Below are positions 7,985-43,370 of a stretch of DNA of 64,000 bases, one piece after another (the stretch's first letter is position 1; each line of letters begins with the position of its first letter). Source of the stretch: Armatimonadota bacterium (GTDB lineage: Bacteria; Armatimonadota; Fimbriimonadia; Fimbriimonadales; Fimbriimonadaceae); the NCBI GenBank assembly GCA_018268375.1, contig JAFDWS010000002.1, forward strand, positions 124,001-188,000, in the 5' to 3' direction. The notes below the pieces were generated by a model. That model did no database searches and had not been told where the DNA came from. It was given only the letters and a program-made list of their open reading frames with translations. Made by a program: the position numbers and the translations under genes.

Positions 7985-8251
7985 TTAGACTTGTCCAACC
8001 TCGCCGTCGCTGGCGATACCTTCTGCGCCCATTATTTGGCCTACAGGCTCCTGTAAAACCTTGCCCAGGAGTTCTAGGTCCTCCATGGTTACTTGCCCGC
8101 CCAGCCGTCGCTTGAGTTCCTCACAGCGCACGTGGCGCTCCTCGACCCGCGCAATCAATTTGATTTCCGCGCGTAGCTGCTCGAGTTGTGCTTCCTTGTC
8201 TCGCTTCAGCGCGACAATATCGTCAAAGCTCATAATTTCGTAGTCTGGCAT
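7985..8251 (-). CDS. Small coiled-coil protein
   Basis: 88 residues, ATG at 8251. Residues about 8-50 form a strongly predicted coiled coil ([20 protein letters not shown], then [17 protein letters not shown]), and the end is Gly/Ala/Glu-rich. Its first 22 bases overlap the 3' end of the HNH gene 8230-9018. That suggests the homing gene inserted immediately upstream and replaced the original leader of this gene. Size and position before a fibre protein fit a small virion connector or chaperone, but no family is recognised. Confidence 0.55.
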
Positions 8252-9018
8252 CCCAAATCGTCTCCAAAGATAATGTTCCGAAGACGTTGGCGCTGTTCCT
8301 GCGAGAGTGATAGAGTCTTGACCGCAGTGATAATGCGTTCGCGCTCTTCAGCGATAAGGTCAAACACACGTTGACCAGCAGGGTCTTTTTTGGAGTGAGG
8401 AGTAATGACCCAAAGCTCGAGGTTTTCCAGGCGGTTATCGTTGCGAATGCCATTTTTGTGGTGGACTCGTTCTTGTTTGTGAAGACTGCGTCCTAAATTG
8501 CGCTCCATGACAAGCCGATGCTGAACCACCCATTTGCCTTGGTGTTTTTCCATGATGTACCCCGATGCAAATTGTCGTGTTTCTCCATCTGGACACACGT
8601 GTCCGCCATGCTTGGTGTGCGACGCGAGGGCGCAACTGCGAGAACAAAATTGACTTTGGTACCCAGTCATTTCCTGTTGGCAATAAGCGCAATTCTTAGC
8701 GCGCCTGGGATTACATTGTCGACGCTTAGCATAACCACATTCTTTGGAGCACGTCAAGCTTTTCCCCTTAAACAGTGTGTTGCACACAGGACATGCTTTT
8801 TGTCCCACCAACTTGGTGTATTCATACCAACAATGAGTTGAGCAAAATCTTTTTTGAGTACCTTTGACGGGTGTAAAAAGCAATTGGCACTGTTCACATG
8901 TGCTTGTGCCATGTGTCTTCCGACGGCATACTTCCGAACAGTATTTGCGCCTCGGTGCCGTAGTGTCAAAGTAGCTGTCACAAATTGGGCATACTTTATG
9001 ACAAATTTGACTATCCAT
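8230..9018 (-). CDS. HNH endonuclease with multiple zinc fingers
   Basis: 262 residues, ATG at 9018. The N-terminal half carries at least four treble-clef or zinc-finger-like cysteine clusters (CPICDSYF...[14 protein letters not shown]...[14 protein letters not shown]...[13 protein letters not shown]...FCSRSC) over residues about 9-135. The C-terminal HNH_3-type nuclease has [13 protein letters not shown], then [19 protein letters not shown] (residues about 165-205), with the expected His-His and Asn. This is a standard free-standing phage homing endonuclease architecture. It overlaps the start of the downstream small gene by 22 bases. Confidence 0.88.
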
Positions 9019-11849: not shown

Positions 11850-11990
11850 AAGAGACAGTATGACTGACCGTCCTCCGAAACTTACGAAAACCCACATGGG
11901 GTCTCCTGCTCGGTTGTCGCTTCATCGACGCTCACCTAGACTGTTGCCAGCCTATGAACCTTGGCGTCTCCGCGACCGTTGATTCCTGCG
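11850..11990 (-). ncRNA. Candidate TnpB guide RNA (omega/reRNA) at tnpB 3' end
   Basis: By analogy with IS200/IS605 TnpB systems, the guide RNA scaffold overlaps the 3' end of tnpB and runs past its stop (11936). The downstream strand contains a short hairpin ACCC(CATGT)GGGT (about 11889-11901) followed by TTTTCG, as expected near an element right end. The boundaries, and the guide beginning beyond the right end, cannot be set from sequence alone, so the coordinates are approximate. Confidence 0.3.
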
Positions 11991-13057
11991 GAACTCGCAG
12001 TATACATCAAATTGACACTAGCATTAAGGTCTCTGTCCAGTGTCATGCCACAGGCTTCGCACACGAACGTGCGTTCCCTGAGGCTCAGCTTGTCTTTGAC
12101 GACTCCACAGGCGGAACACGTCTTGCTTGACGGAAACCACCTGTCAACAAGGAACACCAGTCCGCCTGCCCATTTCTGCTTGTATTCAAGCGTCGTCCTG
12201 AACTGGCGCATCCCTGCGTCATGGACTGACTTGGCCAGACAATGGTTCTTGACCATTCCGCGGACATTCAAGTCCTCCAGGGCCACTACCTGACACCGCT
12301 TGTTTTTCACGATGTCAGTGGTCGCTTTCTGGATTGCATCTTGGCGAGTATTCCTGATTGTCGCCCAGACCCTAGCGATTCTGGCTTCTGTGTGTTTTCG
12401 TCTATTGCTCGTTATTTGTTGACGAGACATCTTTCTTTGAAGCCGTTTGAGTTGCGTTTCGTAAGTGGCGAGTGCCTTTGGGTTTTCATATTGAGTACCG
12501 TCAGAACATGTTGCCAGAGTCTTAATGCCCAAGTCAATGCCAAGAACGCCGTCCAACTTTAGTGGTTGTGCTTCTTCTTTCACAAGTACGCTCACATACC
12601 AACGGCCGGCTTGTTCAGAAACCGTGACTGAAAGAACATGGGCGTTCTGGGGTATGTACTTTGCTTCTTTTAACCGGAGCCATCCGAGTCGTGGCAATTG
12701 AATTCTTCGGTCTTCGACTTTGATAGTTCCTGTTAACCTGAACGAGGTGCTGCCATGGCGTTTGGACTTGAACGTTGGAAATTTAGCCCGTTTGTCGAAA
12801 AAATTACCAAACGCTCGTTGTAAGTCTCGGAGAGCTTCCTGCATGGCGCACTTGCTAACTTCGTACATCCAAGGAAAGTCTGACTGCTTTCGCGCGTTGA
12901 GTTCCCTGTGAAGCGCCATTGCGTTCGGCTTCGACGTTTGGTCTTTAATCTTAGCAAGCCCCCAATTGTACGCAAACCTAGCGCATCCAGCATGCTTTAC
13001 GAGCAACGTTCGTTGAGCGTTGTTTGGGTTTAGTTCCGTTCGGTAAGCGCGTTGCAT
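11936..13057 (-). CDS. tnpB: TnpB, IS200/IS605-type RNA-guided nuclease
   Basis: 373 residues, ATG at 13057. The typical TnpB order is complete: an N-terminal helix-rich OrfB segment (LNPNNAQRTLLVKHAGCARF), a RuvC-I Asp (GIDLGIKTLAT, Asp175), a RuvC-II Glu (VVALEDLNVRGM, Glu261), a zinc finger (CSAC at 314-317 and CEAC at 333-336) and the RuvC-III DRDLNASVNL (Asp341/343). All catalytic residues are present, so it should be active. No TnpA (Y1 or serine transposase) lies nearby, so the element is a solitary TnpB. In phages these may act as homing-type mobile genes or have been co-opted. It sits between the capsid gene and an accessory gene, flanked on its 5' side by strong hairpins. Confidence 0.92.
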   Translation of the reverse strand: MQRAYRTELNPNNAQRTLLVKHAGCARFAYNWGLAKIKDQTSKPNAMALHRELNARKQSDFPWMYEVSKCAMQEALRDLQRAFGNFFDKRAKFPTFKSKRHGSTSFRLTGTIKVEDRRIQLPRLGWLRLKEAKYIPQNAHVLSVTVSEQAGRWYVSVLVKEEAQPLKLDGVLGIDLGIKTLATCSDGTQYENPKALATYETQLKRLQRKMSRQQITSNRRKHTEARIARVWATIRNTRQDAIQKATTDIVKNKRCQVVALEDLNVRGMVKNHCLAKSVHDAGMRQFRTTLEYKQKWAGGLVFLVDRWFPSSKTCSACGVVKDKLSLRERTFVCEACGMTLDRDLNASVNLMYTASSAGINGRGDAKVHRLATV

Positions 13058-17006: not shown

Positions 17007-19601
17007 TTAGTCCAAGACCCAAGTGATTGTACTGGCCAGACGATTCGGCTTACCGAACACAGTGTCGATGCTCGACACCGCGACCGTCCCGCAACCGGTA
17101 CAGATAGTCTTGTTGCGGATTTTCTCGACGGCTTCTCGAGAACCGCAGCCCGGGCACACATGTCCCACAGGCAACTGGTTCATGGCCATACGGTTGGCCT
17201 TGGCTTGTTCCGCAGACACACCTTGTCCGGCAGATGCAAACCGCTGCCACACGAACGGCGAACTTTCCCAACTGGCCTGCATCATCATTGGTGCAGCTGG
17301 CCCACCTGGTGCGGCACCAGGAGCGGGCGGCATTTCTGCGCCCATGGCACCTGCATCCGCACCTTCGGCACCTGGCTCTGGCGGCATCTCGTCCATGACG
17401 TCTTCACCACCACCGTCGTCTTTTTCGTCAGGCACGGCTTCAACGAGCAACTTGAACTTGAGTTGTGTGCCACAAGTTTGGCACTCACCCTCGCCATTGG
17501 CAATGCTTACGCTACTGGAGCCGCACACAGGGCAAATTGTGCCCCATGGCTTTTTCGTCCCCGGTTCTGGCATTGCATCAGGGTCACCTTCGCCTTCGAC
17601 CGGTGCCGTTCCCGGTGCTCCGCCTTCGCTGGGCACCGTCATTGCTGAGAAGCCACCGCCCATCGGGTCAACAGCGCCAGCAAGGGGGTCTGGGCCTGCT
17701 CCACCAGCCATGGCGCCGGGCGGGGTGCCCATTGCGCCACCACCAGGTGCTGCTTGCGCCGTTCGTTCCATTCCCAGCGCGTCCATGGCAGACACTGTGA
17801 ACAAGTTCCCAGAGTTGTCTTCCATAGGCGCATTCTCTGTCGCTTCAACTGGCTCGCTGCCCATGACAGTCGGCGCAGAGTGTCCATCGACAGTGAATGT
17901 TTTGGTGAGTCTTGCACTGACCTCTGCCTGAATGTTTCCACTTTGGTCGACACTCAAGTTGGTCAAATTGAAAGTGCCTTCGTCGACATCGTAGCCTGCC
18001 TGGCGGAAGATGTCCATGGCTCTCTGGCGGAATTGCTGGTCGAAATCATTGGCCTTGGGGTCAAGGTCGCCAAAATCGTCCACCGTCGCAGTCAGCCGCT
18101 TGGTCGTGCACTTTTCATCAGTGACAGCGATGGCTGCTTCGCGCTCCATAAGTTTCTGCACCAAATTGGCTGCGGCGACAGGCCGTTTGCCCAACAGTGC
18201 AGTCGCTTCGGCCAGAACAAACCCGTCCATTTCTCCATCCTGGACGAAATCCGCCAACCAACCATAGACAGTTTGCGCCACGTCTTGCTTGGAAGCGAAA
18301 CGCTTGCCATAGAAGTCTTCGCGCTTGCGGCGCAATTCACGCGCATCGCGAGCTTCGGCCGTGCGCTCCAGTTCCATGGAGGCATGAATTTCGACTTCGT
18401 CCTTTTCTGCAAGGACTGAAACGACTTCTTCCGGCGTGGCTCCACACTCGCTGGCAGCACCAGCCAAAGCGTACAAAGCACTGCGCAAGTCTCCACGACC
18501 TGCTTCACTTGCTTCACCTTCGGCACCCATTGAACTGAACGCCGCCTTGAACTGCTGCTCTCGGGAGGCAATACGAGACACTTCTGCTGCTTCGACAGGA
18601 GCATTTGCCACCATCGCTTTGGTCACACGCGCCACCGCTTTATTGGCCGATTCGCCTGCCGCGACAATTGCCTTCAGACCGTCTACGACGTCACCGGCTT
18701 TCATGTCTTCGGACACAATGCGTCCAAGGGCGTGGTACACCGCGTTTTCGGCACCCACAAGTGGTGCAGCATCATTGTAAAACGCATGACGCTGAGCAGT
18801 GCGCTCGCGTGTTTCAGAACCCAGTGCAGCGATTGCCACCAAGTTCTCAACATCGTTCAAAGAGGCTACGGACTTGGCAACTTCAAGAATTTCCTCTGGT
18901 GTGACCCTGGCCGAATAGGCTGCTTTGCCCAATTCGGTTGCGAGGTTGAAAGCAAGTTTGCGAGTTTCGACCTTGTCGTTTCGACCGCGATACTTTTGCA
19001 ACCGAAGTTCGATGTGTTCGTCCGGACAGCCGCAACGTGCATCGTCGACCAAGAAGTCGTGCGCCTTAGTGCCGTCTTCTCGCCGAGAGTAGAGTCCCGC
19101 ATCTTCCAGCAGTTCCTCTTTGACTTTGTCGTCTGTGCCTTTCCGCTCAGGTTCGAGAGTCTCTTCAATGATTTTGTCGCACGCAGGGTCTTTGCGCTTT
19201 GTGGACACATAGTTGTCGACCGTGTCGCCATCGCCTTTCACTGGGTGACGCTCGCGTTCAAGAGCGTTCTCCTTCACGTCTGTTTCGCCTTCTGGGTCAA
19301 GGTCAAGGTCGCTCCAGACATCAATGCCACGACTTTGTGCCGAACGCACGTGGTTTTGCAAATCCATCAAAAGCGCCGGGCCGACATACTCGACCTGTTC
19401 GTTTTCCATGGCTGTGATGATTTCGTCATTGAGTGTCGGCTGCCATGTGGCCTTGCGGTTCATGTAGAAGCCGGTGACATCACCGCTCGTAGAGATTACG
19501 ACTCGGTGCTGCCCCTCAGGGTCTTCGAATTTTGCGTCGAAGCTGACAGCGTTCGCCGTCCGCTCGCGCAGTTTGCTTGCTATTCTCTTGAAGAGACTCA
19601 T
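17007..19601 (-). CDS. Nested in-frame scaffold-like protein (internal start)
   Basis: An ATG at 19601 inside the 1410-residue ORF is preceded by GGAGG (19616-19612) with ten bases between, the best ribosome site within that ORF. The product would be 864 residues, starting MSLFKRIASKLRERT, a basic amphipathic beginning that looks like a natural N terminus. This mirrors phage lambda, where scaffold Nu3 starts in frame inside protease gene C. The sequence from here is Ala/Glu/Arg-rich and helical (scaffold-like) and ends with the two zinc ribbons. Whether both products are made is inferred, not shown. Confidence 0.55.
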   Translation of the reverse strand: MSLFKRIASKLRERTANAVSFDAKFEDPEGQHRVVISTSGDVTGFYMNRKATWQPTLNDEIITAMENEQVEYVGPALLMDLQNHVRSAQSRGIDVWSDLDLDPEGETDVKENALERERHPVKGDGDTVDNYVSTKRKDPACDKIIEETLEPERKGTDDKVKEELLEDAGLYSRREDGTKAHDFLVDDARCGCPDEHIELRLQKYRGRNDKVETRKLAFNLATELGKAAYSARVTPEEILEVAKSVASLNDVENLVAIAALGSETRERTAQRHAFYNDAAPLVGAENAVYHALGRIVSEDMKAGDVVDGLKAIVAAGESANKAVARVTKAMVANAPVEAAEVSRIASREQQFKAAFSSMGAEGEASEAGRGDLRSALYALAGAASECGATPEEVVSVLAEKDEVEIHASMELERTAEARDARELRRKREDFYGKRFASKQDVAQTVYGWLADFVQDGEMDGFVLAEATALLGKRPVAAANLVQKLMEREAAIAVTDEKCTTKRLTATVDDFGDLDPKANDFDQQFRQRAMDIFRQAGYDVDEGTFNLTNLSVDQSGNIQAEVSARLTKTFTVDGHSAPTVMGSEPVEATENAPMEDNSGNLFTVSAMDALGMERTAQAAPGGGAMGTPPGAMAGGAGPDPLAGAVDPMGGGFSAMTVPSEGGAPGTAPVEGEGDPDAMPEPGTKKPWGTICPVCGSSSVSIANGEGECQTCGTQLKFKLLVEAVPDEKDDGGGEDVMDEMPPEPGAEGADAGAMGAEMPPAPGAAPGGPAAPMMMQASWESSPFVWQRFASAGQGVSAEQAKANRMAMNQLPVGHVCPGCGSREAVEKIRNKTICTGCGTVAVSSIDTVFGKPNRLASTITWVLD

Positions 19602-21239
19602 TTTGGCGGTTCCTCCGGACTTTTCGCGCGCTCGTTCGGCGTGCTTCACTGGTTGTTCGTTTGTAGCGGCACGTGTGCCCGCCGCGGTCGCCAGTGTGTC
19701 GCCCCCGACGCTTTCAGCCAGTGCCATCAGGCATTGACCAAACTTTTCTAAATTGTTATTGCCGTCTCGATTGGCGGCCGCATAAACCTCGCGTGTGCCG
19801 TCAGAATTCCTGTCGGCCCACACCAGCGATGCTTTCTGATGTTCGTTTGGACCCAACAACGGGTTCAAAGGTTTTTCGGTCGTGAATGAAGTTTCACTCG
19901 CTTTGATGGGGTTCATCATCTGCCCAACTCCTCCTGCTTGGCTATAGTCACCCATGGGTCCTGGCGGTTGTGTTTGTCCTGCTGCAGGGCTTGGTGCGCC
20001 CGGCGTGTTCATGAGCGTCCCCCCCGAGTTTTGCCCGGCTTGGGCCCCCACGGGTGAGTCCACGCCGTCATCAATCAAGTCTTGCATGGTGCCCTGAAGG
20101 TCAGACATCGCTTTCGCGATTTTTGACACATGTTGCAAGTCCACATTGTCTTTGCGAGTGAACATTTGCATGATGGCCACTTCCAGGAAGTTCAAAGCCA
20201 CGTTTAACAAATCCAACACGTTAAGTTGCTGGCGCACATCCATGCCCAGGGCTTTTAAGATGCCGCCGACAGTGGAGTTCGCGTTGGCACCTGGGATGGC
20301 CAAAAGCTGCGGGTTAGTGCCCTGGACTTGTGCACAACGCACGGCAGTCTGCGTGGTCTGTACAGCTGTGCGCAACATGTGTGCGTACTCACGCTTGGCA
20401 CCAGGCTTGAACTGTTCGACGAGACTGTCGGCCACCAAAACTCGTTGACGGATACTGGACACGCGACGGTTGAACTCAAGAGCTCTTTGGGTCAACTCGT
20501 CTTGGTCGTAAAGCTCCGTGATGGATGCGCTGTCAAAAGCACCATCATTGACGAGAGACAGTTCGATAAACTTAATGCCCCGGTTCTTTTCATAGACCTT
20601 TTGGCCACCACCAGGCATGCGTTTGCCTTTGTAGTTTTTAAGGTGTTCACAGTAATCAGAAACCTTAACGGCTTCATGGTTGCAGACTGAACACACTCCT
20701 GACTCCACGGTGCAACCCATGGAGACGTCGCTAATCATGCCGATGCGCACGCCATTGGCAATTTCTGGATATGCGTCTTCGGAAATATAGAACGTGCACC
20801 ATACGCACTGTTCCTTGTCGTCCCACTCTGCGTAGACAACTTCGCCCTTGGCTTTCTGAATGTCTTTGTTGTCGTGGTTCGTATGAATCGGGCAGCCTTC
20901 GAAGGTTTTGTACGCAGGTACTTTTTTGCCCTTGTGAATGACTTCTTGCAGAAGCTCTTCAGCAGAGAAGTAGTCTCCGTTGGCGTTGACTGTGTCAGCG
21001 TCAATAGCTCGGCACCGAACCCAGAGCAAGTTATAGCCCTGACGGTCGTTCATCTCCTTGAGTAGGTCAAAACCGTCTTCTGTCTCACGGTTTAGAACGT
21101 CTGCGGGGTCGGCATAAAGACTTTGTTTGCCGACCTTGGCAGCCGAAATCACGCGCGCCTTGCCATTTTGACCAGGCGCGTAAAGCACTTCGATGTCGGC
21201 TTTGTCTACAAAGCTTCGGGTGATGCCTTTACGCAACAT
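17007..21239 (-). CDS. Prohead protease fused to long structural C-terminal region
   Basis: 1410 residues, ATG at 21239. Residues about 70-205 show a herpes/HK97-type prohead protease pattern: ANGDYFSAEEL, then FEGCPIHTNHDN (candidate catalytic His119/122), strands ending GEVVYAEWDD, and GMISDVSMGCTV (candidate Ser173). A CxxC...CxxH cluster (Cys183, Cys186, Cys197, His199) follows. From residue 547 the same frame can be translated separately (see nested gene). Its C-terminal part is helical and charged, then Gly/Pro/Met-rich, and closes with two zinc ribbons (CPVCG...CQTCG and CPGCG...CTGCG). The portal lies upstream and the scaffold-like protein downstream. The protease call rests on motif order and context. 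Confidence 0.7.
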   Translation of the reverse strand: MLRKGITRSFVDKADIEVLYAPGQNGKARVISAAKVGKQSLYADPADVLNRETEDGFDLLKEMNDRQGYNLLWVRCRAIDADTVNANGDYFSAEELLQEVIHKGKKVPAYKTFEGCPIHTNHDNKDIQKAKGEVVYAEWDDKEQCVWCTFYISEDAYPEIANGVRIGMISDVSMGCTVESGVCSVCNHEAVKVSDYCEHLKNYKGKRMPGGGQKVYEKNRGIKFIELSLVNDGAFDSASITELYDQDELTQRALEFNRRVSSIRQRVLVADSLVEQFKPGAKREYAHMLRTAVQTTQTAVRCAQVQGTNPQLLAIPGANANSTVGGILKALGMDVRQQLNVLDLLNVALNFLEVAIMQMFTRKDNVDLQHVSKIAKAMSDLQGTMQDLIDDGVDSPVGAQAGQNSGGTLMNTPGAPSPAAGQTQPPGPMGDYSQAGGVGQMMNPIKASETSFTTEKPLNPLLGPNEHQKASLVWADRNSDGTREVYAAANRDGNNNLEKFGQCLMALAESVGGDTLATAAGTRAATNEQPVKHAERAREKSGGTAKMSLFKRIASKLRERTANAVSFDAKFEDPEGQHRVVISTSGDVTGFYMNRKATWQPTLNDEIITAMENEQVEYVGPALLMDLQNHVRSAQSRGIDVWSDLDLDPEGETDVKENALERERHPVKGDGDTVDNYVSTKRKDPACDKIIEETLEPERKGTDDKVKEELLEDAGLYSRREDGTKAHDFLVDDARCGCPDEHIELRLQKYRGRNDKVETRKLAFNLATELGKAAYSARVTPEEILEVAKSVASLNDVENLVAIAALGSETRERTAQRHAFYNDAAPLVGAENAVYHALGRIVSEDMKAGDVVDGLKAIVAAGESANKAVARVTKAMVANAPVEAAEVSRIASREQQFKAAFSSMGAEGEASEAGRGDLRSALYALAGAASECGATPEEVVSVLAEKDEVEIHASMELERTAEARDARELRRKREDFYGKRFASKQDVAQTVYGWLADFVQDGEMDGFVLAEATALLGKRPVAAANLVQKLMEREAAIAVTDEKCTTKRLTATVDDFGDLDPKANDFDQQFRQRAMDIFRQAGYDVDEGTFNLTNLSVDQSGNIQAEVSARLTKTFTVDGHSAPTVMGSEPVEATENAPMEDNSGNLFTVSAMDALGMERTAQAAPGGGAMGTPPGAMAGGAGPDPLAGAVDPMGGGFSAMTVPSEGGAPGTAPVEGEGDPDAMPEPGTKKPWGTICPVCGSSSVSIANGEGECQTCGTQLKFKLLVEAVPDEKDDGGGEDVMDEMPPEPGAEGADAGAMGAEMPPAPGAAPGGPAAPMMMQASWESSPFVWQRFASAGQGVSAEQAKANRMAMNQLPVGHVCPGCGSREAVEKIRNKTICTGCGTVAVSSIDTVFGKPNRLASTITWVLD

Positions 21240-21330: not shown

Positions 21331-23718
21331 CTATGCACCCAATTTTCGTTTGATTAACGTCTGAAGGGTACGCATGATGACAGACTGTACTTCGTCTGCC
21401 CGTTCATTGAGCTCGTTCTCGGTAAACCGCAGAAGCGTCCAACCTTGGGCGGCCAACTGGGAATCGCGATAACGGTCGCGTTCAACCTCGTCTGCGCCAG
21501 CATGGTATGTTTCAGAGTCGGCCTCCACGCCAAGTTGCACGTCAGGGAAGGCTCCGTCCAACCTGTACTGGTTGTCCGGTCCTGCAGCGTATTGTGCATA
21601 GAACGGTAAAGGCGGATTGATACTGAGGACAATGTTGTAAAGTTTGTACTCCCAGCTTGTGAACTTTTCGTACGGGCCAGGTCGCATGTCGGCATCGTTG
21701 CCTTTCTTTGCCTCGCGCACCCATCCTTGCCCGATGTCCGATATACGTTCTTGCACAGCAAGGGGATTCATGGGCAGACTGAACTCTCCACCATGGAACG
21801 GCCCCCACTCTTCAAGCAAATCTACTCGGGGGTCGAGCTCGTTTGCCAAAGCCCCTCTGAAACCGCAACCAGTCACAGGGCACTGCGACTCAATGAACAT
21901 ACGGTGTGCCTCTGAGCGATATTGACCTCCAAATGCTTGTCGCGCAGAGACAAAATATCCCGTGCGCACGTTGTCATACAGTGCGTTGGGCACAGTTGTC
22001 GCTTCCCGATAGTTCTCTTCAGGGTCACGCGAAGCCGCGGCTGGCATTGGCGGTGGTCCGCCAGCCGGCATGCCACCACCCATGTCAGGCGCCGGCGGTG
22101 CGCCCATGCCACCCATCGGCGGCATCGGTGGTGCGCCCATGCCAGCTCCGCCCATTGGCGGTGCTAGTGGCCCGCGGTAACCATTGCCCATTTCGCCTGC
22201 AGCCAAGGACGGCGAAGTCACAGAAGAGAAGTTGCTCTCCATGCGCAGCCGTTCGACTTCTTGGTCGTAGTTGATGTCCATAAGCTCAAACAATGTCTGG
22301 GCAGACAAATCGCCGGTTTGCCGAGCTTGCATGGCAATTTGCAACAAGTTTGAGTTGTCACGCAGTTTTAAGTCATCCCACTTAATGGTGGGGTACACAA
22401 GCTTGGTGCCACCACGCTTGTTCTCGACCTCAAACCCGTTCCATTCAGCAACCGGTTTGAATAGTGCCTCCTCAATCCAATGCGCCACTTCACCGCGCAA
22501 CTTTTCAAGTCGTTGAGCCATGCTTAACAAGCCGACTTGGGCATTGGCGTAGGATGGCCCTTCGCCATTTAACAAGGCCTTGTTGAGCATAAACGCGTCA
22601 AAGATGTCTTGGTTGATTAACTCAAACTCGTTCGTAAGTTGGAGCACCTTTCCGGACGCTCCGACGTAGTCCATCTCAAACGTGTGCGGGGCAATCATGG
22701 TCATGAGGGGGTCATTGGCCACATTGGCGATTTCCTCCGCAATCATTTGCAAGTCTGCGTCGCTGGCTGGTCGGTCGTCGTTCCCCAATTTTGCGACCTT
22801 AAAGGGCAAAATGTGTCGTTCGGCGACGAGGTACTGAGCTTGCCTCAACTTGTCTTTGTAGACCAATGTTGGGAACAGCCGTCGCACCATGCTGCGGCCG
22901 AAAGGCTGCCACGGTGCCGCGGTTCGCTTGAAGTGCTGCACACAGACCGGGTCAAGGGGAATAGGTTCGTTTTTAAGGATGTAAGCTTTGATGGCATCCG
23001 GGATGGTCTTGTAGGTCTCAAGCGGCTTGCGCTCAGTGACCACCTTTTTCATCATTTCGTCCGGCATATAGTAATACACCGGTCGCATGTCCATCATGGC
23101 CGGGCTGAGTTCAACTTGTGTGGGGTTCAACAAAGTGATGCTTTTCCACTTTGCTCCCAAGTGGGTGCATTGTTCGTCGGTGTCAGGGTCGACTCCGGAG
23201 CCGCTGCAATGAGGGCAATCCAAAGATGAGTACACAAAGACGTCGCCGCGCAAATGGTACTCTTGGCTGATGAGAGGCAATAACTTGGAAAAGTCCAAGT
23301 CTTTGACCATCTGCTCATAAAATTCCAAGACCTTAGAGTTCGCACACTCAAGTTTGAAGCCCGACAGGGGGAAGTCAGAATAGAACTCAATGGCTGCTGC
23401 TACTGCCGGCTCATTGTCAAAAAACCATTGCGCCCACAGGTATTCTTCAATTCTGTTGGTGGGAATCTGGAAAGAGCTTGGTGTCGTGAACGGAGTGTAA
23501 AAGTTAGGCGCCGTGGTGATAGACGTACTACTGCCGCTCGTGAAAGCGTACCGTGCGCGGAAATCACGCTTGACATCCGAGGATGCCCTGGCGCTTCTGA
23601 TAGTTGGATGCTCTCGTGACCCGGGTCCCAATGCGTTGACCTGTCGGTTGTCCACTTTCGCCACGGCTTCAGCAATGACTGTTTGAAGACGCGGAGAATT
23701 TGAGCCGTCTTTCCTCAT
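21331..23718 (-). CDS. Portal protein with C-terminal DUF559/Vsr-like nuclease domain
   Basis: 795 residues, ATG at 23718. Residues about 60-490 look like a portal: IEEYLWAQWFFDNEPAVAAA, FSKLLPLISQEYHLRGDVFV, SITLLNPTQVELS, PWQPFGRSMVRRLFPTLVYK, and the long helix after QLTNEFELINQDIFDAFMLN. A Pro/Gly/Met-rich linker spans about 520-570. Residues 688-795 match the PD-(D/E)XK fold of DUF559/Vsr-type endonucleases: Glu690 in SWEYKLYN, Asp721 in YRLDGAFPD, Glu732-x-Asp734 in LGVEAD, then ERDRYRDSQLAAQGWTLLRF. The catalytic acidic residues appear intact. It follows the virion-like genes and precedes the protease, the standard portal-protease-scaffold-capsid order. The fusion is within one uninterrupted frame. 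Confidence 0.8.
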   Translation of the reverse strand: MRKDGSNSPRLQTVIAEAVAKVDNRQVNALGPGSREHPTIRSARASSDVKRDFRARYAFTSGSSTSITTAPNFYTPFTTPSSFQIPTNRIEEYLWAQWFFDNEPAVAAAIEFYSDFPLSGFKLECANSKVLEFYEQMVKDLDFSKLLPLISQEYHLRGDVFVYSSLDCPHCSGSGVDPDTDEQCTHLGAKWKSITLLNPTQVELSPAMMDMRPVYYYMPDEMMKKVVTERKPLETYKTIPDAIKAYILKNEPIPLDPVCVQHFKRTAAPWQPFGRSMVRRLFPTLVYKDKLRQAQYLVAERHILPFKVAKLGNDDRPASDADLQMIAEEIANVANDPLMTMIAPHTFEMDYVGASGKVLQLTNEFELINQDIFDAFMLNKALLNGEGPSYANAQVGLLSMAQRLEKLRGEVAHWIEEALFKPVAEWNGFEVENKRGGTKLVYPTIKWDDLKLRDNSNLLQIAMQARQTGDLSAQTLFELMDINYDQEVERLRMESNFSSVTSPSLAAGEMGNGYRGPLAPPMGGAGMGAPPMPPMGGMGAPPAPDMGGGMPAGGPPPMPAAASRDPEENYREATTVPNALYDNVRTGYFVSARQAFGGQYRSEAHRMFIESQCPVTGCGFRGALANELDPRVDLLEEWGPFHGGEFSLPMNPLAVQERISDIGQGWVREAKKGNDADMRPGPYEKFTSWEYKLYNIVLSINPPLPFYAQYAAGPDNQYRLDGAFPDVQLGVEADSETYHAGADEVERDRYRDSQLAAQGWTLLRFTENELNERADEVQSVIMRTLQTLIKRKLGA

Positions 23719-28675: not shown

Positions 28676-29074
28676 TTAAGCTTGCTTATGCCCTCGTCGC
28701 TCGCTCACCTGCGAGTTCGAACGCACAACTGTCATGCCTGAGCCCTCGTAAACGAGATAATCGCCCGTGGCGAGGCTCAAGCGGTCGAACGTGCCTCGTG
28801 ACGCTTCTACAACGAAGCGCGCGGGACTGCCAGGTCGGACAGACATTTCAGACTGTGCTTCCATCGACCTGAAGTCGACGACCTTGCCGTTCTCGTCGAG
28901 GAACGCAAGGTCCAACGGGAACCCTACGTTCTTGTTCCAAAATGCATGTCTCTCACTTCGGGGAAAGACAAAGAGCACGACTTCTTCAGAACCCAGGGGA
29001 GACGCATGCATCAACCCCTGTGCCCTTTTAGTGTCATTGTCTGCTACAAAGCGGACAGCTAGGCGGTTCGTCAC
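28676..29074 (-). CDS. DUF192 family protein
   Basis: 132 residues, GTG at 29074 overlapping the stop of the giant gene (GTGA). It matches DUF192: RAQGLMHASPLGSEEVVLFV, FPRSERHAFWNKNVGFPLDL, AFLDENGKVVDF, then ARFVVEASRGTF and GDYL near the end. In cellular proteins a signal peptide usually precedes this domain; none is present here, so this copy is cytoplasmic or virion-borne. The biochemical role of the family is unknown. Similar genes occur in large phages. The coupling to the 2390-residue gene suggests the two products act together. Confidence 0.75.
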   Translation of the reverse strand: MTNRLAVRFVADNDTKRAQGLMHASPLGSEEVVLFVFPRSERHAFWNKNVGFPLDLAFLDENGKVVDFRSMEAQSEMSVRPGSPARFVVEASRGTFDRLSLATGDYLVYEGSGMTVVRSNSQVSERRGHKQA

Positions 29075-32000
29075 GATGTGACTCCTAGCGCAAGCGCCAA
29101 ACGGTCTATGCTGTCGGCCTCACCGTACCGGCCTGCACTGTCCAACAACTCTGCAATCCGGACTAGTTTGTTAAGTGCGATAGCGTGCACAGGCTCAGGT
29201 GCCGGAACCGCAGTGTCCACAGGCGAGCCAGCGTCGGTCATACCTGCGTCGGGTGCCTCTACTGTCGGTCGTCGTTTCTTGTTCGCAAAGTACGGCATTA
29301 CCTGCTGGTACAACGGATGAGCAGTATCCAGGTTCAAAGTCCCAATCATGCCATGAGAGTACGCACCATTGGACAACCGTCGCCCTTGGAGGTCAACGTC
29401 AGGATATTGCCCCGCACCATGAAGTGCCTGCACTTGGGCGATTTGCCCTTGGTGCACTGCTTTGTTGTAGCTCATTGGCGCGCCTGTGTTGTGCGCGTCT
29501 TTCAGGTTTTTGATGCGTTCTTTGGTCTGGCCTCGAAGCTCATCGTAAATGCCTTGTTTCAATTCAGGGTCTGCAAATACCGTGGGTGACAAGAACTCGA
29601 CGTTGCGAGTGCCATAGCCCAGTGCTGTTTCTTCGTTCTTGTTGGCTTTCTTCAAAGCTTCAGTGCGGTACTTAGCATAATCTTCGTCGCTCTCTCCTTC
29701 TTGTTGTGCGCGCACATGCGACTTGAGCGCTGTCTGAACAACGGGGAAAAGGCTTTCGCCAGTGGCCATGTCGTTAATGGTTCTGGCAACGGCGGTGTCG
29801 ATGCTTTCCTCTGGAATTCGCGACAACATAGGCCGCACATATTCTTGGTCGAATTGTGCCAGTTGTCCATCCTCTGCAGCCTCCCTGCGTGCATTAACCA
29901 TCTCTGTGGCGCGTTCTTCGATAGCCGTGTACACTGGCTGTGCAGCGACGTGCAATTGGCGAACAAGCGACCCAAGCGGAGTAGAAATTTCCCCACTGGC
30001 CCCTAACCCTTCGCCAATGACTTTCTTCAACAGACCTTCGGCAATCCTCAGCACTTGGTCTACCTGGGTGTTGTTGGCACCTTCAGGCGACAAGTCGCCC
30101 AAAGTTTGTGGCTGAATCTGTGATTGCAGCAAGTGTGAGTAGTCGTCTAAGCGGTCGAGAACGTAATCCCACAAATCGCTTGTTGACAGTTTCTCGCCTC
30201 CAGCTTTGCCCAACCGTCTTTGCATCGCTGACATAGGATTCAGTGACCAGTCTCCGGGTCGTTCGGTGTGCACTAGTGAGGCAACTATTTCTGACGTGAC
30301 AGTGCTCGCAATATAGGCAGCAATGCGCTTGGGTTCAAACTGCCAATGTTGTTCCTGGTCGATGAACGTCTGATGTGCCGGGTCTAGCTGAATAAGCTCC
30401 GACATAAGTCGTCCGTTCGCCAACTGGAGAGTCAACGATTGTTTAGCGGCAGTAAAATCGCGCGGGTCAGTACCCTTGTACTCACCGTCTTTGCCACTGT
30501 ACTCCTTGCGAAGCTGTTCGATGAGCCCTGGGTTGCTTTCTGCATGCTCGACCGCGGAGATGGCATAGTCAATTTTTCCTTGCTCCATCTCGTCCAGCTG
30601 CCCATAGTTCATTGATTGTCTAATCTGTTCTGCGTCAGACTTGACACCGGCAATAGCTTGTGACAGGAGTGCGTTCCAATTAGCTCGCATCTCAGGTGTG
30701 GCATTTGCTGCTTTGGCGACATACTTGGCCAACAGGCTATATGCCATGGCCAGCGGAGACGCCGTGGCCAAAACGACATTGTTGTCGGGATTCCCCCACA
30801 AAATGATGCCCGGGCCAGTGTACTTGCGCTCAAGTCGTGACAATGCCTCGTCTATGGTGCTGAACCCAGAGGCCGCAAATGGAGACGTAGCGTCATCGGG
30901 TGCCTCGATGGTCGACAACCAATCGTTCACAAACCACGCCAAATCTTTGCCTTGGGTGAACTCTTGTTGGTACTTGACCTTGCTGTTGGGTTCTCCGTGT
31001 GGGTCGTATACTGGCACACGGTGTCGACCGGCAAGCTTGTCCAATTTGGACATTTCCACCGCGTAGGTGATTCCCGACCGCGCGAGGAAGCGATAGAGTT
31101 CGTCCGAGCTTACGCCTTGGAGGTTTCCTTCTAGGATTTTCTCAACTTCCTTGGGGTCGTCGGCCTGCAGACCTGCACCTGCCAAAGACGGCGCAGCGTT
31201 CACGGGACTTTCAAACAGCCGGTTGTTCGCAAGGATTTTGCCCACAGTCGGGCGCGAAGTCTCGTCGCGGTCTTCTTGACTGAGTTGTGACTCATGCCGC
31301 GCCATTTCTTTACTGAGTTGCACTCCGTAACTTCCGGCCTCGCCTCGAGCGATGTTCTCTTTGTCCAAGAATATCGTGCGAGTAATGAAGTTCCAGACTT
31401 CCCTGGCCGACATGTCGTACTGGGCCGCCAACTCGATGACCTTACGGTCATAGTCCATTGGATTAGTGTCCTCAGGAATGTCATTGGTAGCGAGCTCGGT
31501 AAAAGCGTTGCCATAGTAGACCATTTTCGCAAGATGGTCAAAAACCTTATAGGCGTCAATCATGTGAAGAATGTTTTCATCACGTTGGATTTCAGCCTGA
31601 AGCTTTTTGGCCTCACGCGGGTTTCTCTCACTGATGTCGGTCAGCCTTTGTCGACTGCGGGCGATAGATTGCTTTGATTCTTGCGCCATGCGGAAGACAA
31701 AGTCGTACATTTGTTGCGCTCGTGCCGCGCGCGTAACTCCGCCGCGGTCGTCCATGAACAAGTCACGGTTCAGGTTTTGCCTGAATTGCCCCAACAATGT
31801 GTTGCTTTGGCCACCACCAAGAATGTTCTTCGTGTTTTCTGCGATTGCGCTTTGCGCATCGCTGGTTAAAAACTCTTCGTCGTTGTAAAGCGGCGTGTCC
31901 AGGTACTCAGCGCTGTATTCTTCCGGGGTGTCCCCAACCAGGTCGCGCTCGCGTCCTTCGTCGTCAGTCACCACCAAAGGCTCGGTACTTTCTTGGGCCA

Positions 32001-35000
32001 CAGACCTCTTTGGATACACCTCTCCACGAGCACGTTTGTCCAGCTGACTATTGGCCTCGTGGGCCAATGCCCGGTTCGCTTTGCCAAAAATGCCTACTTG
32101 TGAGTCTGTCTGCTCGCGCAGCAGTTCTGCGTTGAGCGCATGCATCATCGGTTCGTCGACGACCGCATCTGCCTGCGCATTGTCAATCGGCATGCACGGA
32201 GTGTCTTTGTCAACTTCAAAGGGGTTCGACGCGCGCAAGGACGAACGCAGTTTTGACATTTCGGCCAAGGCTTCGGGTGTCGTGGGTCGTGCCGCCTCCA
32301 GTGCTGCCAACTTGGCTTTTTCCAACCATTGTGGCGAGTTGGGGTCGACACCAGGAGACTCCATGACCAAATCCCACACGTCCTTTTGAGGCGTGCGTTC
32401 GGTTTGGATGGCTTGACGCTGCAGCAACATAGTCATAGCAGTCACCAAGTTCAGCCCTTCCATTTCTCTTTCGGTGGCATGAACTACGTCAGGGAACAGT
32501 TTTTCCCGTTTCTCGACTACTGCTTGCGTTTGTGCAAGGTGTTGAGCTTGTTGGACCAGTTCTGGTGGGAAAATGGTTTCGTCGTTCAACCAACTGCGGT
32601 GAGAGGCCAGGAGCCGGTGCAGTGGCATCGCTCGCCACTGTTCGACTGCACTGCGCGCCCCTTTCTTGAACCGTGGATTCACTCTCTGAATCCGTTTTTC
32701 TGCCGGCTTCAGGGTTTTTTCCATCAACTTGACAGCTTCGTCACCCAGAATGTGCTCAAGGTCTTCGCCTTCAAGGTCGCGTTCCGGTTTTTGCATGAGG
32801 TGCGACAAAGCCTGTGCGGCCAAATCGTTCCCGGCCTCGCTGTCCAAGTCTGGTTTCATGAACCGCTTGTTGGCGCCGCTCATCAACATGTGCCAAAACT
32901 TGTTGTTGGGTAGTCCAGGCGTGTTAGGCCCCTTGTCGTAGTTGCTCATCAGAGCTGCCTTCACCAGGGGCTTGACATACCCTTCTTGCTGAGGGGCACC
33001 ACCAGTCAACAACATGTATTCGGATACCAGCTGGCGAGCGTCTTCTTCATCCAGTCGACCGTGCATGGCCGCTTCTTTGAGCTGTGCCATGTCACCATAG
33101 AGAGACTCCATGGCCTCGGCAGTGTAAGGGTGTCCGGAATCCAACACTGTGCGCAACAAGTTGGGAATCCAGACATTGCCAATTTTCCATTGCTCGCTGG
33201 CATCTGCGCCGGCACTAGACAACCGCTTGACGGCCGCTGCCGCCATTTTGTCGTCCATCACTTTTTGTCTGGCGACGTTCCATGCAGCTTTTTGCGGAAA
33301 ACCAGACTCGAGCAACCCTTGATAAACAGTGTTGATTTTGTCGTTGTCCGAAGGATAGACTTGGACTTGTCCACCCTTAAGTTCGTGTCCGCCTGGATTT
33401 TGCGCATTGGCATATTGGACCAACAACTGCAGTCCTTGTTCGTCCAGTTTGTCAGCCGGCAGCGCCACACGTTCTCCTCCAAGTGCTTTGACAGTTGTCA
33501 CTGAACCTTGAATGCGGTCGTTTTCTGTCAAATGACGGTATGTGCCATCTGGTCCCAAAAACACCTTGTAGTCAGCCAATAAGTCTTCTGGTCTTAAGGA
33601 CTCAAATGTCTGCTGATTGACCATTTTTTTGCCGATAGTGGCATTACCCTCTTCGTCAAAAACAACAGGACTAGCCCCCTCCAGCCAGTACAGTTTGCCG
33701 GCAGTTCGAAGTACTCCGTGCTTCAAGAGTTGGTCATCAGAAGCGTGCATCAACCGCTCGACGGCGATAGGCATGGGTGCGCCAGCAGGCAGCTCAACAG
33801 GCAATGCAGACGGCAGCGGCACCTGCGTGCCGTCCGGCATCGTGTAGGTCACCCTGCGCTCGGTGTCCAAAACTGCCCCAGCTTGGTTCTTCAACTCATT
33901 GGCGTAGTTTTCCAAGTTAAAGGCAAATTCTGCTCTTTCTTCTTCGCTAAACCGTTGTGAAGTCAATGCATGTGGCCACCGGCCTGGTTTGCCCTTCGCA
34001 TGTTCTTCAGCCTTTTTCGCCCGTTCATTGGCAAGGTTGGCCGCCTTTTCGGCGCGTTCTTGCATTTGCTGGCGCTTTTGCCTCAAAAGACCGTCCGCCC
34101 ACAGAGAAAACAGGACGTCGTCCTCGTCTTCAAAGGGCTGTCGACCAGCAATTTGTTCAGCCAAGTTCACGTCATGTGCGCTGAACAGGTTTTGTCGCAA
34201 GACTTCGTTGCGCAATTTTTCGGCCGATTCAGAATTTGGCACGTACTTGTGCAGTTTCACAAATTCTGTGTCGTCTTCGTTGTCTCCCTTGACTTCGAAA
34301 GTGTATGGCCCCTCAACGCTGACGTGTTCGGGTGAGGTGAGGTACGAAGCACCTTGGGTGTATTTTTTCACACGCAACCGTTGTTGGTTGCGCAAATATG
34401 CCACGGCGGCCTGGCCCCAGCTTGCTGTAACCCCTTGGTCGGCCAAAGCAGCTTGTAATTGACTGATGGCGTCTTTTTCCTCAGACGAAAAGACATGGTC
34501 TTTCAGCCAATGAGATTCCACAAACCCCAAAGCATTTTTAGCTTCGTCTGTCCAGCCTTCTTCCCTTCTTGGCATAGGCACCTTGTAATCAGTGCCGCCA
34601 ACGTTTACATCGACTGTTTTGACGTGGCGTTGGTTGTGGAGTGTCTTGGCGCTATTGTTGAGAGCGTTGTCAGCATTGCGTTCAAAAGCTTTGCGCAAAG
34701 CGTACAGCTTTCGGTCTGCCTCAGGCAAATTTTGTAGTCCACCGGCCGACTCGTAAGTGGCCAGTGTTTTGCCTTTGTCAGTCAAACTGGTGTCAGAACT
34801 GAGCGCATATGGGCTTTCGTGCTTGCCACCCGGCTGACCGTGGTCTCCCGTGACCGCATGACCGACATAAGGATGCTTGAGGATGAATTGTCGCAGTGAA
34901 CTAGGATACTGAGACGCCATTAACTCGACGAGCTTCAGTCCAAGATGATTTGCTTTTTGCTTAAGTGCCTCTAGCTCGGGGTTTTCTCGTCGCTCAGCGG

Positions 35001-36243
35001 GCGACAGGCTTTCTGCCAATTGTCCGTAAGCCTGTCGTGCCGCATGCAGTTGAGACTCAAGCTGGTGTAGCGGCCTGGTGTTGGGGTTGTCTGGATTTTT
35101 GGGTTGAAAAGCAGAGGTGCCCTCACTATTGATGTATGTGTATAGTTCGGGGTTACCCAAGTAGTGCAGAGCTCTCGCCAATAGGTTGGCGTCCGACATT
35201 ACGCCGTCTTCTTTACCGCCCAAGTTGACCAAAGAACCACCGCCAAGAGTGAAGTGCTCCAGCTCGGGGTCTGCTTCGACAGCAGCTTCGTCCACTTGTG
35301 CCTTTGCCGCTGGTGCCAAATGTCCATTGGCATCCATTTGGTCCCACAACCCGTGTTGGGTCATGTATTCATAGATGTTAAAATCAGCGTTCGGCCCCGG
35401 GTCTTTAGGTGCTTTTTCACCATTGACACTAAGAAGCTGCGCCAAAACATGCTTGTTGCTGTTGAGCGTAGGCACAGGCGAGCCTTCCGAAAAACGGTAA
35501 CGGAAACTAGTGCCATAAGCAGTTGGAGACTCCTCAGTTGGCACTATGATTGGCTTAGTCCAAGTGGGTATTTTGCTAGGGTCTTCACCACTTGGCTCCC
35601 GGTACAAATTGGCGGCAACCGGGCTTGGCATGACCTCATAAGACCGTATGCCCAATTGTGCAGCGGGCACAATGTCTGCTCCCAATCGTTGCGCTTCTCC
35701 GTTGGGGTCTCGAGGAGACGTAGTAAAGCGCGTTACGGTGCCTTGCAACTCAAGTTGCGATTGCTCCAACTCTCTATTGCCCTGAGCTTCCTCGTCTGGT
35801 GTCTGGTTGCGCACCGCATGGGTGTCAATCGGCTTGCCAGTGACAGTGTCTTTTCCGGTGCTTTTATCGTGGTACAGGTAAAGACCATATGCGTACAGTT
35901 GCGCGGCCTGCTCTTCTGCAAACTCTTGATTGACACTAAACTTCCATCCAAGTTCTCCAGTCTCTTGTCGGTCGCCGTTTTCGTCGGTCTTCTTCTTTAC
36001 ATAAGGGTACTTGAACCGCGATACGAGCAGGACCGGGTGCAACAAACGCTTTTTTTGCTGCGCCGGTTTCGACTGTGGAGCGGCTTCCTCGAGCTGTTCG
36101 GTCTGTGCTTTGCGAACAAAAGTCCTTGCGCCAGAGTCAAATCCTTTGTCAGGCGTAGCGACAGGCACGTGCGTGCCTGTGCCACCGTCGCGACCTGTCG
36201 CGCGGCCAATTCCTAATTTGCCAAGGATGTTGTGAATTTTCAC
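29071..36243 (-). CDS. Giant virion-like protein (2390 aa)
   Basis: GTG at 36243, two bases after the previous stop. The N terminus is basic and Gly-rich, then mostly charged alpha-helical sequence without recognisable catalytic motifs, transmembrane segments or tandem repeats. Local features include LLHPVLLVSRFKYPYVKKKT (near residue 75), many Gln/Ala-rich helices (IAGRQPFEDEDDVLF, MQERAEKAANLANERAKKAE), and a C terminus KLVRIAELLDSAGRYGEADS then IDRLALALGVTS carrying the LD..GR..AD motif shared with three other proteins. The size is in the range of tape-measure or ejected internal virion proteins, but the lack of hydrophobic segments argues against a classical tape measure. An internal head protein that enters the cell with the DNA is an attractive but unproven idea. 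Confidence 0.75.
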   Translation of the reverse strand: MKIHNILGKLGIGRATGRDGGTGTHVPVATPDKGFDSGARTFVRKAQTEQLEEAAPQSKPAQQKKRLLHPVLLVSRFKYPYVKKKTDENGDRQETGELGWKFSVNQEFAEEQAAQLYAYGLYLYHDKSTGKDTVTGKPIDTHAVRNQTPDEEAQGNRELEQSQLELQGTVTRFTTSPRDPNGEAQRLGADIVPAAQLGIRSYEVMPSPVAANLYREPSGEDPSKIPTWTKPIIVPTEESPTAYGTSFRYRFSEGSPVPTLNSNKHVLAQLLSVNGEKAPKDPGPNADFNIYEYMTQHGLWDQMDANGHLAPAAKAQVDEAAVEADPELEHFTLGGGSLVNLGGKEDGVMSDANLLARALHYLGNPELYTYINSEGTSAFQPKNPDNPNTRPLHQLESQLHAARQAYGQLAESLSPAERRENPELEALKQKANHLGLKLVELMASQYPSSLRQFILKHPYVGHAVTGDHGQPGGKHESPYALSSDTSLTDKGKTLATYESAGGLQNLPEADRKLYALRKAFERNADNALNNSAKTLHNQRHVKTVDVNVGGTDYKVPMPRREEGWTDEAKNALGFVESHWLKDHVFSSEEKDAISQLQAALADQGVTASWGQAAVAYLRNQQRLRVKKYTQGASYLTSPEHVSVEGPYTFEVKGDNEDDTEFVKLHKYVPNSESAEKLRNEVLRQNLFSAHDVNLAEQIAGRQPFEDEDDVLFSLWADGLLRQKRQQMQERAEKAANLANERAKKAEEHAKGKPGRWPHALTSQRFSEEERAEFAFNLENYANELKNQAGAVLDTERRVTYTMPDGTQVPLPSALPVELPAGAPMPIAVERLMHASDDQLLKHGVLRTAGKLYWLEGASPVVFDEEGNATIGKKMVNQQTFESLRPEDLLADYKVFLGPDGTYRHLTENDRIQGSVTTVKALGGERVALPADKLDEQGLQLLVQYANAQNPGGHELKGGQVQVYPSDNDKINTVYQGLLESGFPQKAAWNVARQKVMDDKMAAAAVKRLSSAGADASEQWKIGNVWIPNLLRTVLDSGHPYTAEAMESLYGDMAQLKEAAMHGRLDEEDARQLVSEYMLLTGGAPQQEGYVKPLVKAALMSNYDKGPNTPGLPNNKFWHMLMSGANKRFMKPDLDSEAGNDLAAQALSHLMQKPERDLEGEDLEHILGDEAVKLMEKTLKPAEKRIQRVNPRFKKGARSAVEQWRAMPLHRLLASHRSWLNDETIFPPELVQQAQHLAQTQAVVEKREKLFPDVVHATEREMEGLNLVTAMTMLLQRQAIQTERTPQKDVWDLVMESPGVDPNSPQWLEKAKLAALEAARPTTPEALAEMSKLRSSLRASNPFEVDKDTPCMPIDNAQADAVVDEPMMHALNAELLREQTDSQVGIFGKANRALAHEANSQLDKRARGEVYPKRSVAQESTEPLVVTDDEGRERDLVGDTPEEYSAEYLDTPLYNDEEFLTSDAQSAIAENTKNILGGGQSNTLLGQFRQNLNRDLFMDDRGGVTRAARAQQMYDFVFRMAQESKQSIARSRQRLTDISERNPREAKKLQAEIQRDENILHMIDAYKVFDHLAKMVYYGNAFTELATNDIPEDTNPMDYDRKVIELAAQYDMSAREVWNFITRTIFLDKENIARGEAGSYGVQLSKEMARHESQLSQEDRDETSRPTVGKILANNRLFESPVNAAPSLAGAGLQADDPKEVEKILEGNLQGVSSDELYRFLARSGITYAVEMSKLDKLAGRHRVPVYDPHGEPNSKVKYQQEFTQGKDLAWFVNDWLSTIEAPDDATSPFAASGFSTIDEALSRLERKYTGPGIILWGNPDNNVVLATASPLAMAYSLLAKYVAKAANATPEMRANWNALLSQAIAGVKSDAEQIRQSMNYGQLDEMEQGKIDYAISAVEHAESNPGLIEQLRKEYSGKDGEYKGTDPRDFTAAKQSLTLQLANGRLMSELIQLDPAHQTFIDQEQHWQFEPKRIAAYIASTVTSEIVASLVHTERPGDWSLNPMSAMQRRLGKAGGEKLSTSDLWDYVLDRLDDYSHLLQSQIQPQTLGDLSPEGANNTQVDQVLRIAEGLLKKVIGEGLGASGEISTPLGSLVRQLHVAAQPVYTAIEERATEMVNARREAAEDGQLAQFDQEYVRPMLSRIPEESIDTAVARTINDMATGESLFPVVQTALKSHVRAQQEGESDEDYAKYRTEALKKANKNEETALGYGTRNVEFLSPTVFADPELKQGIYDELRGQTKERIKNLKDAHNTGAPMSYNKAVHQGQIAQVQALHGAGQYPDVDLQGRRLSNGAYSHGMIGTLNLDTAHPLYQQVMPYFANKKRRPTVEAPDAGMTDAGSPVDTAVPAPEPVHAIALNKLVRIAELLDSAGRYGEADSIDRLALALGVTS

Positions 36244-42660: not shown

Positions 42661-43370
42661 CAAACAGTCTCCTCACGAATTTTTTGACGGAGTTCGCGTA
42701 CATAGCTTCGGATTATGTCCTTACTGGCTTCATCTTGAATGAGGTTCATCAAATCGGCCAAGATGTGCTGCACGCTCATGACTTCAGTGGACTCTTCCTC
42801 AAATTGCTTTTGAGCTTGTGAGTACGCAGCCAGCAATGCGCGCATTTCCGCCGATTTCTTGAGTTCCAAGTCAGGTTGGTTCTTAGTCCGTATTGCTTCA
42901 ATGCGGTCAATTTGGGCCAGGAGGCCTGTGATAACGAGCTCGCTGCGGCGCAAGCGCCACCAGTCGAACTCTTCGGCTCGTTTTTGCAACATGGACAAGC
43001 CGGATGAAATGATTTCGGTCAATACACAATGCTTATGCATGTGGTGTTTGACAGCTACTGGATTCACCATTGCGCCGTAGTAGCGCCAGAAATAGTGCGC
43101 TACCGCAGCCGGACTTTCGCCATTGGCCAAAAATACGTGTTCAACCTTCGTTCGGTACGGCGAAGAACAAATAGCACACTTGTTCTCATGGAACGTAGGG
43201 TACATGACACCCTCAAACGGGTCAGGCGGCAATGGCTCCAAAGGCGTCTCATTACCAGTCAGGTCTTGTATGTACTTGCGCTTGTCTACAGGGACGCTGC
43301 GCGTAATGTTGCGCAACCCGGGCACGAGAATCGTTTGAACGACCTGCTTTTCTTTGTTTGAATCGGCCAT
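42660..43370 (-). CDS. Probable terminase small subunit / DNA-recognition protein
   Basis: 236 residues, ATG at 43370 with AAGGAGG upstream. It has a Cys/His head motif (CAICSSPYRTKVEHVFLANG, then PAAVAHYFWRYYGAMVNPVA, VKHHMHKHC) typical of zinc-bearing HTH proteins that precede terL in some large phages, and a long C-terminal helical part (LVITGLLAQIDRIEAIRTKN, LLAAYSQAQKQFEEES). Its stop overlaps the terL start, so translation is coupled. It would recognise the packaging site and form a ring. Family assignment is by motif and synteny. Confidence 0.65.
   Translation of the reverse strand: MADSNKEKQVVQTILVPGLRNITRSVPVDKRKYIQDLTGNETPLEPLPPDPFEGVMYPTFHENKCAICSSPYRTKVEHVFLANGESPAAVAHYFWRYYGAMVNPVAVKHHMHKHCVLTEIISSGLSMLQKRAEEFDWWRLRRSELVITGLLAQIDRIEAIRTKNQPDLELKKSAEMRALLAAYSQAQKQFEEESTEVMSVQHILADLMNLIQDEASKDIIRSYVRELRQKIREETV

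Follow-up and report, generated by a model that had tools for sequence, protein, structure and literature searches.

Portal proteins are mostly viewed as ring-shaped structural parts through which DNA passes and which sense the filling of the head. Portals joined to an enzyme have been described amongst the polyvalent portal/MuF effector fusions (PMC5512222), and nucleases other than the terminase large subunit (TerL) provide precedents for extra packaging nucleases, including T4 endonuclease VII, which binds the portal protein gp20 (Golz and Kemper 1999, via PMC9958956), T4 gp4 (via PMC7824862), and HNH proteins (Kala 2014, via PMC6316719). In T4, the stem, wing, and crown of the portal lie inside the capsid (PMC9958956). 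The DUF559 (PF04480)/Vsr/EDxHD nucleases I-Bth0305I (3r3p), NGO0050 (3hrl), and Vsr (1cw0) are free-standing or intron-homing enzymes. A portal carrying a DUF559/Vsr nuclease was not found described in the literature searched, in keeping with the first-pass annotation of this locus, which had considered it a candidate for an undescribed system.

Results

A portal protein with a C-terminal nuclease domain

The window (the whole stretch of DNA that was analysed, 64,000 nucleotides) contains the following features:

21331–23718, minus strand: portal-DUF559 fusion ORF, 795 aa, open throughout
22228–23538, minus strand: portal core, residues 61–497 (portal PHROGs 16240/2833/2739, Portal_Mu)
22036–22182, minus strand: Gly/Pro/Met-rich flexible linker, about residues 513–561 (from the sequence)
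21670–22035, minus strand: pre-domain region, residues 562–683, weakly constrained
21334–21669, minus strand: DUF559/Vsr-like PD-(D/E)XK nuclease domain, residues 684–795, with E690, D721, E732-x-D734, H739, D748, R751, and D752 (Pfam, conservation, model and fold match)
20514–21134, minus strand: head maturation protease domain, residues 36–242 of the 1410-aa ORF at 17007–21239 (phrog_18299, phrog_2774)
40552–42663, minus strand: TerL, 703 aa, with Walker A/B and nuclease motifs

Both sequence and gene order identify the fusion ORF as a portal. Matches to portal PHROGs cover residues 17–435 of its 795 (best phrog_16240, E 7e-38), Portal_Mu exceeds the Pfam cut-off across residues 253–465, and the portal-core profile also matched the SPbeta YonE chain 9pha, while the head maturation protease is adjacent and TerL lies in the same region. 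Towards the C-terminus, residues 717–785 match Pfam DUF559 (PF04480) above the curated cut-off (29.5 bits against 20.6, E 7e-7), with a match to REase MTES_1575 (PF18741) at residues 725–782 falling below its own (33.6–35.9 bits against 38.2).

An AlphaFold model of the domain alone, built from 48 sequences, reached a pLDDT of 88.6 and a pTM of 0.82 with the element order alpha-beta-beta-beta-alpha-beta-alpha; a full-length model from two sequences was uninformative (pLDDT 31). The best solved fold matches of the domain model were the catalytic domain of I-Bth0305I (Z 13.9), NGO0050 (Z 13.5), and Vsr (Z 10.2), and a sequence-profile search recovered the same three (E 7e-10, 5e-10, and 0.004, respectively). 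Across 64 aligned domains, D721, E732, H739, D748, R751, D752, and R764 are invariant and D734 is retained in 62 and replaced by Glu in the other two, while E690 is kept in all 63 aligned domains having a letter there. Both the fold and the conserved active-site residues of the DUF559/Vsr PD-(D/E)XK nucleases were found, and E690, D721, E732-A-D734, and RDSQLAAQGWTLLRF sit where the first-pass annotation had placed them. Its claim that a portal and an apparently intact nuclease share one polypeptide is borne out by Pfam, conservation, and the fold model, and the predicted product is confirmed as a portal protein ending in a DUF559/Vsr-type PD-(D/E)XK domain of ~110 C-terminal residues.

The Gly/Pro/Met linker that had been read as separating the two parts is real, but it does not contact the nuclease, ~120 further residues lying in between. 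A core-to-domain spacer of at least 86 residues, similar in kind, occurs in all of the relatives measured, and a stretch similar to the pre-domain region is present only in one half of the fusion clade. On an IMG/VR contig of 478,840 bases, a protein of 799 aa shares 80% identity with the window protein end to end and has the same architecture and domain; between the two, pN is 0.11 for the domain, 0.08 for the core, and 0.28 for the pre-domain region, at saturated synonymous sites (pS about 0.9). The value for the nuclease domain is near that of the core and well below that of the pre-domain region, indicating that purifying selection acts on the nuclease as a protein.

Inteins typically settle where essential enzymes are most conserved. 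Five distinct relatives (L173/L204, L207, L225, L239, and L241) have an intein inside the ExD motif (E^CDG..H), inserted between the Glu and the Cys-Asp-Gly, which independently supports the view that the putative active site is important. Catalytic activity of the portal-borne nuclease is predicted from these patterns. More widely, the portals of L075, L076, L087, and L088 and many of L206–L252 contain at least one intein, with ORFs of up to 1868 aa.

Occurrence amongst phages and inheritance

A portal-alignment scan returned 148 relatives, of which 80 were kept, a list that is biased towards the fusion since the query contains the domain; a query with the portal core only, run to avoid this bias, left the picture unchanged, and a scan with the domain alignment added proteins that start as portals and end in DUF559. 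Within IMG/VR there were 125 distinct portal ORFs, 115 of them complete and 95 with an in-frame domain. With L129 set apart, every distinct complete portal whose core identity is 36% or more carries the domain in frame (95 of 95), while none of the 19 more distant portals (<35% core identity), phage G among them, does so. A search for other phages with portals ending in DUF559, proposed in the first-pass annotation, has thus shown the fusion to be far more general than the single case known to it, marking a whole clade. Fusion-bearing contigs reach about 548 kb (L205). In L129, the portal and the domain are split after the linker by an in-frame TGA (L129:5687–5689), which may represent natural fission, readthrough, or mutation.

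No fusion of a portal with DUF559 was seen amongst isolates in INPHARED (50,697 phage records), where the best-matching portals share about 28% identity with the query and none spans 80% of it; the domain alone matched mostly helicase-like and unnamed proteins in isolate phage records. A genome_contigs scan found no relative, and the only hits in cellular genomes of the host's kin were remote portals and DUF559 proteins standing alone.

In a tree of the portal core, the 64 fused rows fall on one side of a single branch (SH-aLRT 99), requiring one change compared to 13 in shuffles; the tree was a quick one with some long branches, and its fine detail is unsure. A tree of the domain recovers the same main groups, and portal and domain distances are strongly correlated (Mantel r 0.96; none of 2000 permutations as high), as expected of parts inherited together. 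Domain exchange was not observed inside the fusion clade. A sister portal of the phage G type, L015 (L015:3204–6254), has an unrelated 456-aa C-terminal extension after the linker with no family match. The trees and distances indicate a single origin of the fusion, in the common ancestor of a clade of large phages none of which has yet been cultured. Strong selection has maintained it since.

Neighbouring genes and genome context

The 1410-aa ORF with the protease domain adjoins the portal ORF, and in 72 of the 84 relatives with enough sequence the fused portal is likewise followed by a homologous protease. Inspection by eye of TerL revealed Walker A (GRRSGKS), Walker B (IIDE), and Asp-bearing nuclease motifs, and an endonuclease VII is encoded in the same genome (C5:276876–277124), in which the portal domain is the only DUF559. 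With separate TerL and endonuclease VII present, the portal nuclease is an addition. A role for the domain in replacing a lost TerL nuclease was rejected, as the TerL motifs look intact, and a role as the sole debranching enzyme is unlikely given the endonuclease VII.

The motif [KR][TYLFIV]A[SQ] occurs 15 times in the head/tail ORFs of the window (3645–37153, minus strand) compared to 3.1 times in shuffles, a fivefold enrichment matched by none of 500 shuffles, and is not enriched in the replication ORFs of the window. Of 59 portals free of inteins, 36 have a slightly wider form in their spacers, and 13 independent representatives have five spacer sites compared to 0.24 expected, though only three of the 13 contain the motif. 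The motif, which was chosen after some of these sequences had been inspected, could be a candidate head-protease site or a sorting signal. Release of the nuclease by a prohead protease, as suggested in the first-pass annotation, agrees with the adjacent protease gene and with the enrichment of the motif in head proteins and some linkers, but a [KR]xA[SQ]-type motif is absent from the spacer of the window's own portal, and taken together these sequence patterns offer a faint hint of proteolytic release.

The window corresponds to positions 124001–188000 of a 1,363,254-base contig (G000:C5). The first ~531 kb of this contig have a GC content of 51–58%, about 60 tRNA genes, and phage genes, while the remainder, beyond a junction near 531,000, is bacterial with ~60% GC (RuvC at 1,265,015); the change in composition reflects a phage of very large size that has integrated, or else a chimera of assembly or binning. 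The tRNA array includes an ARAGORN tRNA with anticodon CTA (labelled Pyl; C5:504178–504252, minus strand), a possible amber suppressor. Genes for an HNH endonuclease and a transposase occur within the structural gene region of the window (8230–9018 and 11936–13057, minus strand), and a 2390-aa ORF in the head cluster (29071–36243, minus strand) has no PHROG match. In another phage group (L090–L096), a stand-alone DUF559 gene of ~190 aa shares a conserved cluster with an ORF resembling a prohead protease and with a head-protein family; since its surroundings yielded no homologous portal, this group was not used as proof.

Discussion

As in other phages, the portal C-terminus presumably lies in the crown and hence on the lumen side of the head, a position from which cutting at the motor, the head-full cut included, is unlikely. 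The earlier suggestion that the domain aids terminase in that cut loses ground for this reason and because the ATPase and nuclease motifs of TerL look intact. Assuming twelve-fold assembly of the portal, the DNA entry vertex would have around twelve Vsr/EDxHD-type PD-(D/E)XK nucleases, hanging on the lumen side from long flexible tethers (the spacers of at least 86 residues). The interpretation favoured here, tentatively and a little short of probable, is that a conserved nuclease acts on phage DNA at the portal vertex. Its most likely job would be housekeeping on that DNA while packaging proceeds, in which a particular structure or site (a mismatch, branch, lesion, or specific nick) would be cut or nicked such that a proper genome is packaged. 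The lack of loss or exchange of the domain is more in line with a housekeeping function than with an effector in an arms race. Against a role at the vertex, an active nuclease on the lumen side and away from the motor would be expected to meet the finished genome, and, with endonuclease VII already encoded, debranching need not be the task of the portal nuclease.

The main rival is a virion-borne effector, in which the portal tail would serve as a loading signal and a head-carried nuclease, cleaved or not, would leave the head together with the genome and cut the DNA of the host or of competitors. The lumen-side position of portal C-termini, the adjacent head protease gene, and the enrichment of the candidate motif in head/tail ORFs, with its wider form in part of the clade's spacers, all point in this direction, as do described fusions of portals with predicted effectors (PBECR, 2H, and pyrophosphatase; PMC5512222). 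However, the motif was picked post hoc, is found in few of the representatives and is missing from the window spacer, the domain has never been swapped for others inside the clade, and the phage's own DNA would need protection, such that an effector is possible but doubtful. With a homing endonuclease (I-Bth0305I) as the nearest solved fold, the domain could also be a domesticated homing-type nuclease used for binding rather than cutting, for instance in holding or organising the DNA end at the portal, though this is unlikely as all of the putative catalytic residues are kept across portals down to 36–38% identity.

A homing endonuclease that is still active and uses the portal gene as a vehicle, as a selfish element with no role for the phage, would agree with the EDxHD-type fold and with nuclease genes being common mobile elements in phages (PMC10448857). 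Such an element would be mobile and scattered in its distribution, without regard to the host gene, and this pattern was not seen; instead there is a single gain, no loss bar one fission, and a domain tree and distances that follow the portal, on which basis a mobile homing gene was rejected and the selfish reading is very improbable. An annotation or assembly artefact, in which a frameshift joins two genes, as considered in the first-pass annotation, deserves practically no weight: no support for it was found, L129 alone having portal and domain parted by an in-frame TGA, and it is refuted by the same fusion in 95 distinct complete portals and by the same architecture and domain in the 80% identical relative.

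It is conceivable, though we would hesitate to call it likely, that in this clade of giant phages the packaging vertex would by design have two nucleases, with TerL on the outside and some twelve Vsr-type copies tethered to the portal on the inside, and that an intact genome could not be made or delivered without them. The clade-wide conservation of the catalytic residues and the inteins in the active site suggest that DNA cutting at the vertex, or a cutter carried in the head, matters to these phages, and that the fusion has added a DNA-processing part to the virus head that is so far unstudied. As the domain is of ~120 residues and expressible alone, the fate of DNA at the portal is directly testable.

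Relation to described systems

The alpha-beta-beta-beta-alpha-beta fold and the E-D-ExD-H signature are shared with I-Bth0305I, NGO0050, and Vsr, while the window domain differs from those free-standing or intron-homing enzymes in forming the C-terminus of a portal. The phage G-type portals (gp14 of Bacillus phage G and relatives) have a homologous core (28–31% identity) and a Gly/Pro-rich tail but, unlike the window portal, have the nuclease domain neither in the portal nor in the neighbourhood examined. The polyvalent portal/MuF fusions likewise join an enzyme to a portal, though the enzymes are a PBECR RNase, a 2H phosphoesterase, and a pyrophosphatase, with DUF559 unmentioned in the text of that paper (PMC5512222). 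T4 endonuclease VII on gp20, T4 gp4, and HK97 gp74 (HNH) are similar in linking a nuclease other than TerL to portal or head assembly, but are separate, unfused proteins of other folds or subfamilies. Portals fused to other predicted effectors and separate packaging nucleases were therefore already known, and what this clade adds is a DUF559/Vsr nuclease on the portal itself.
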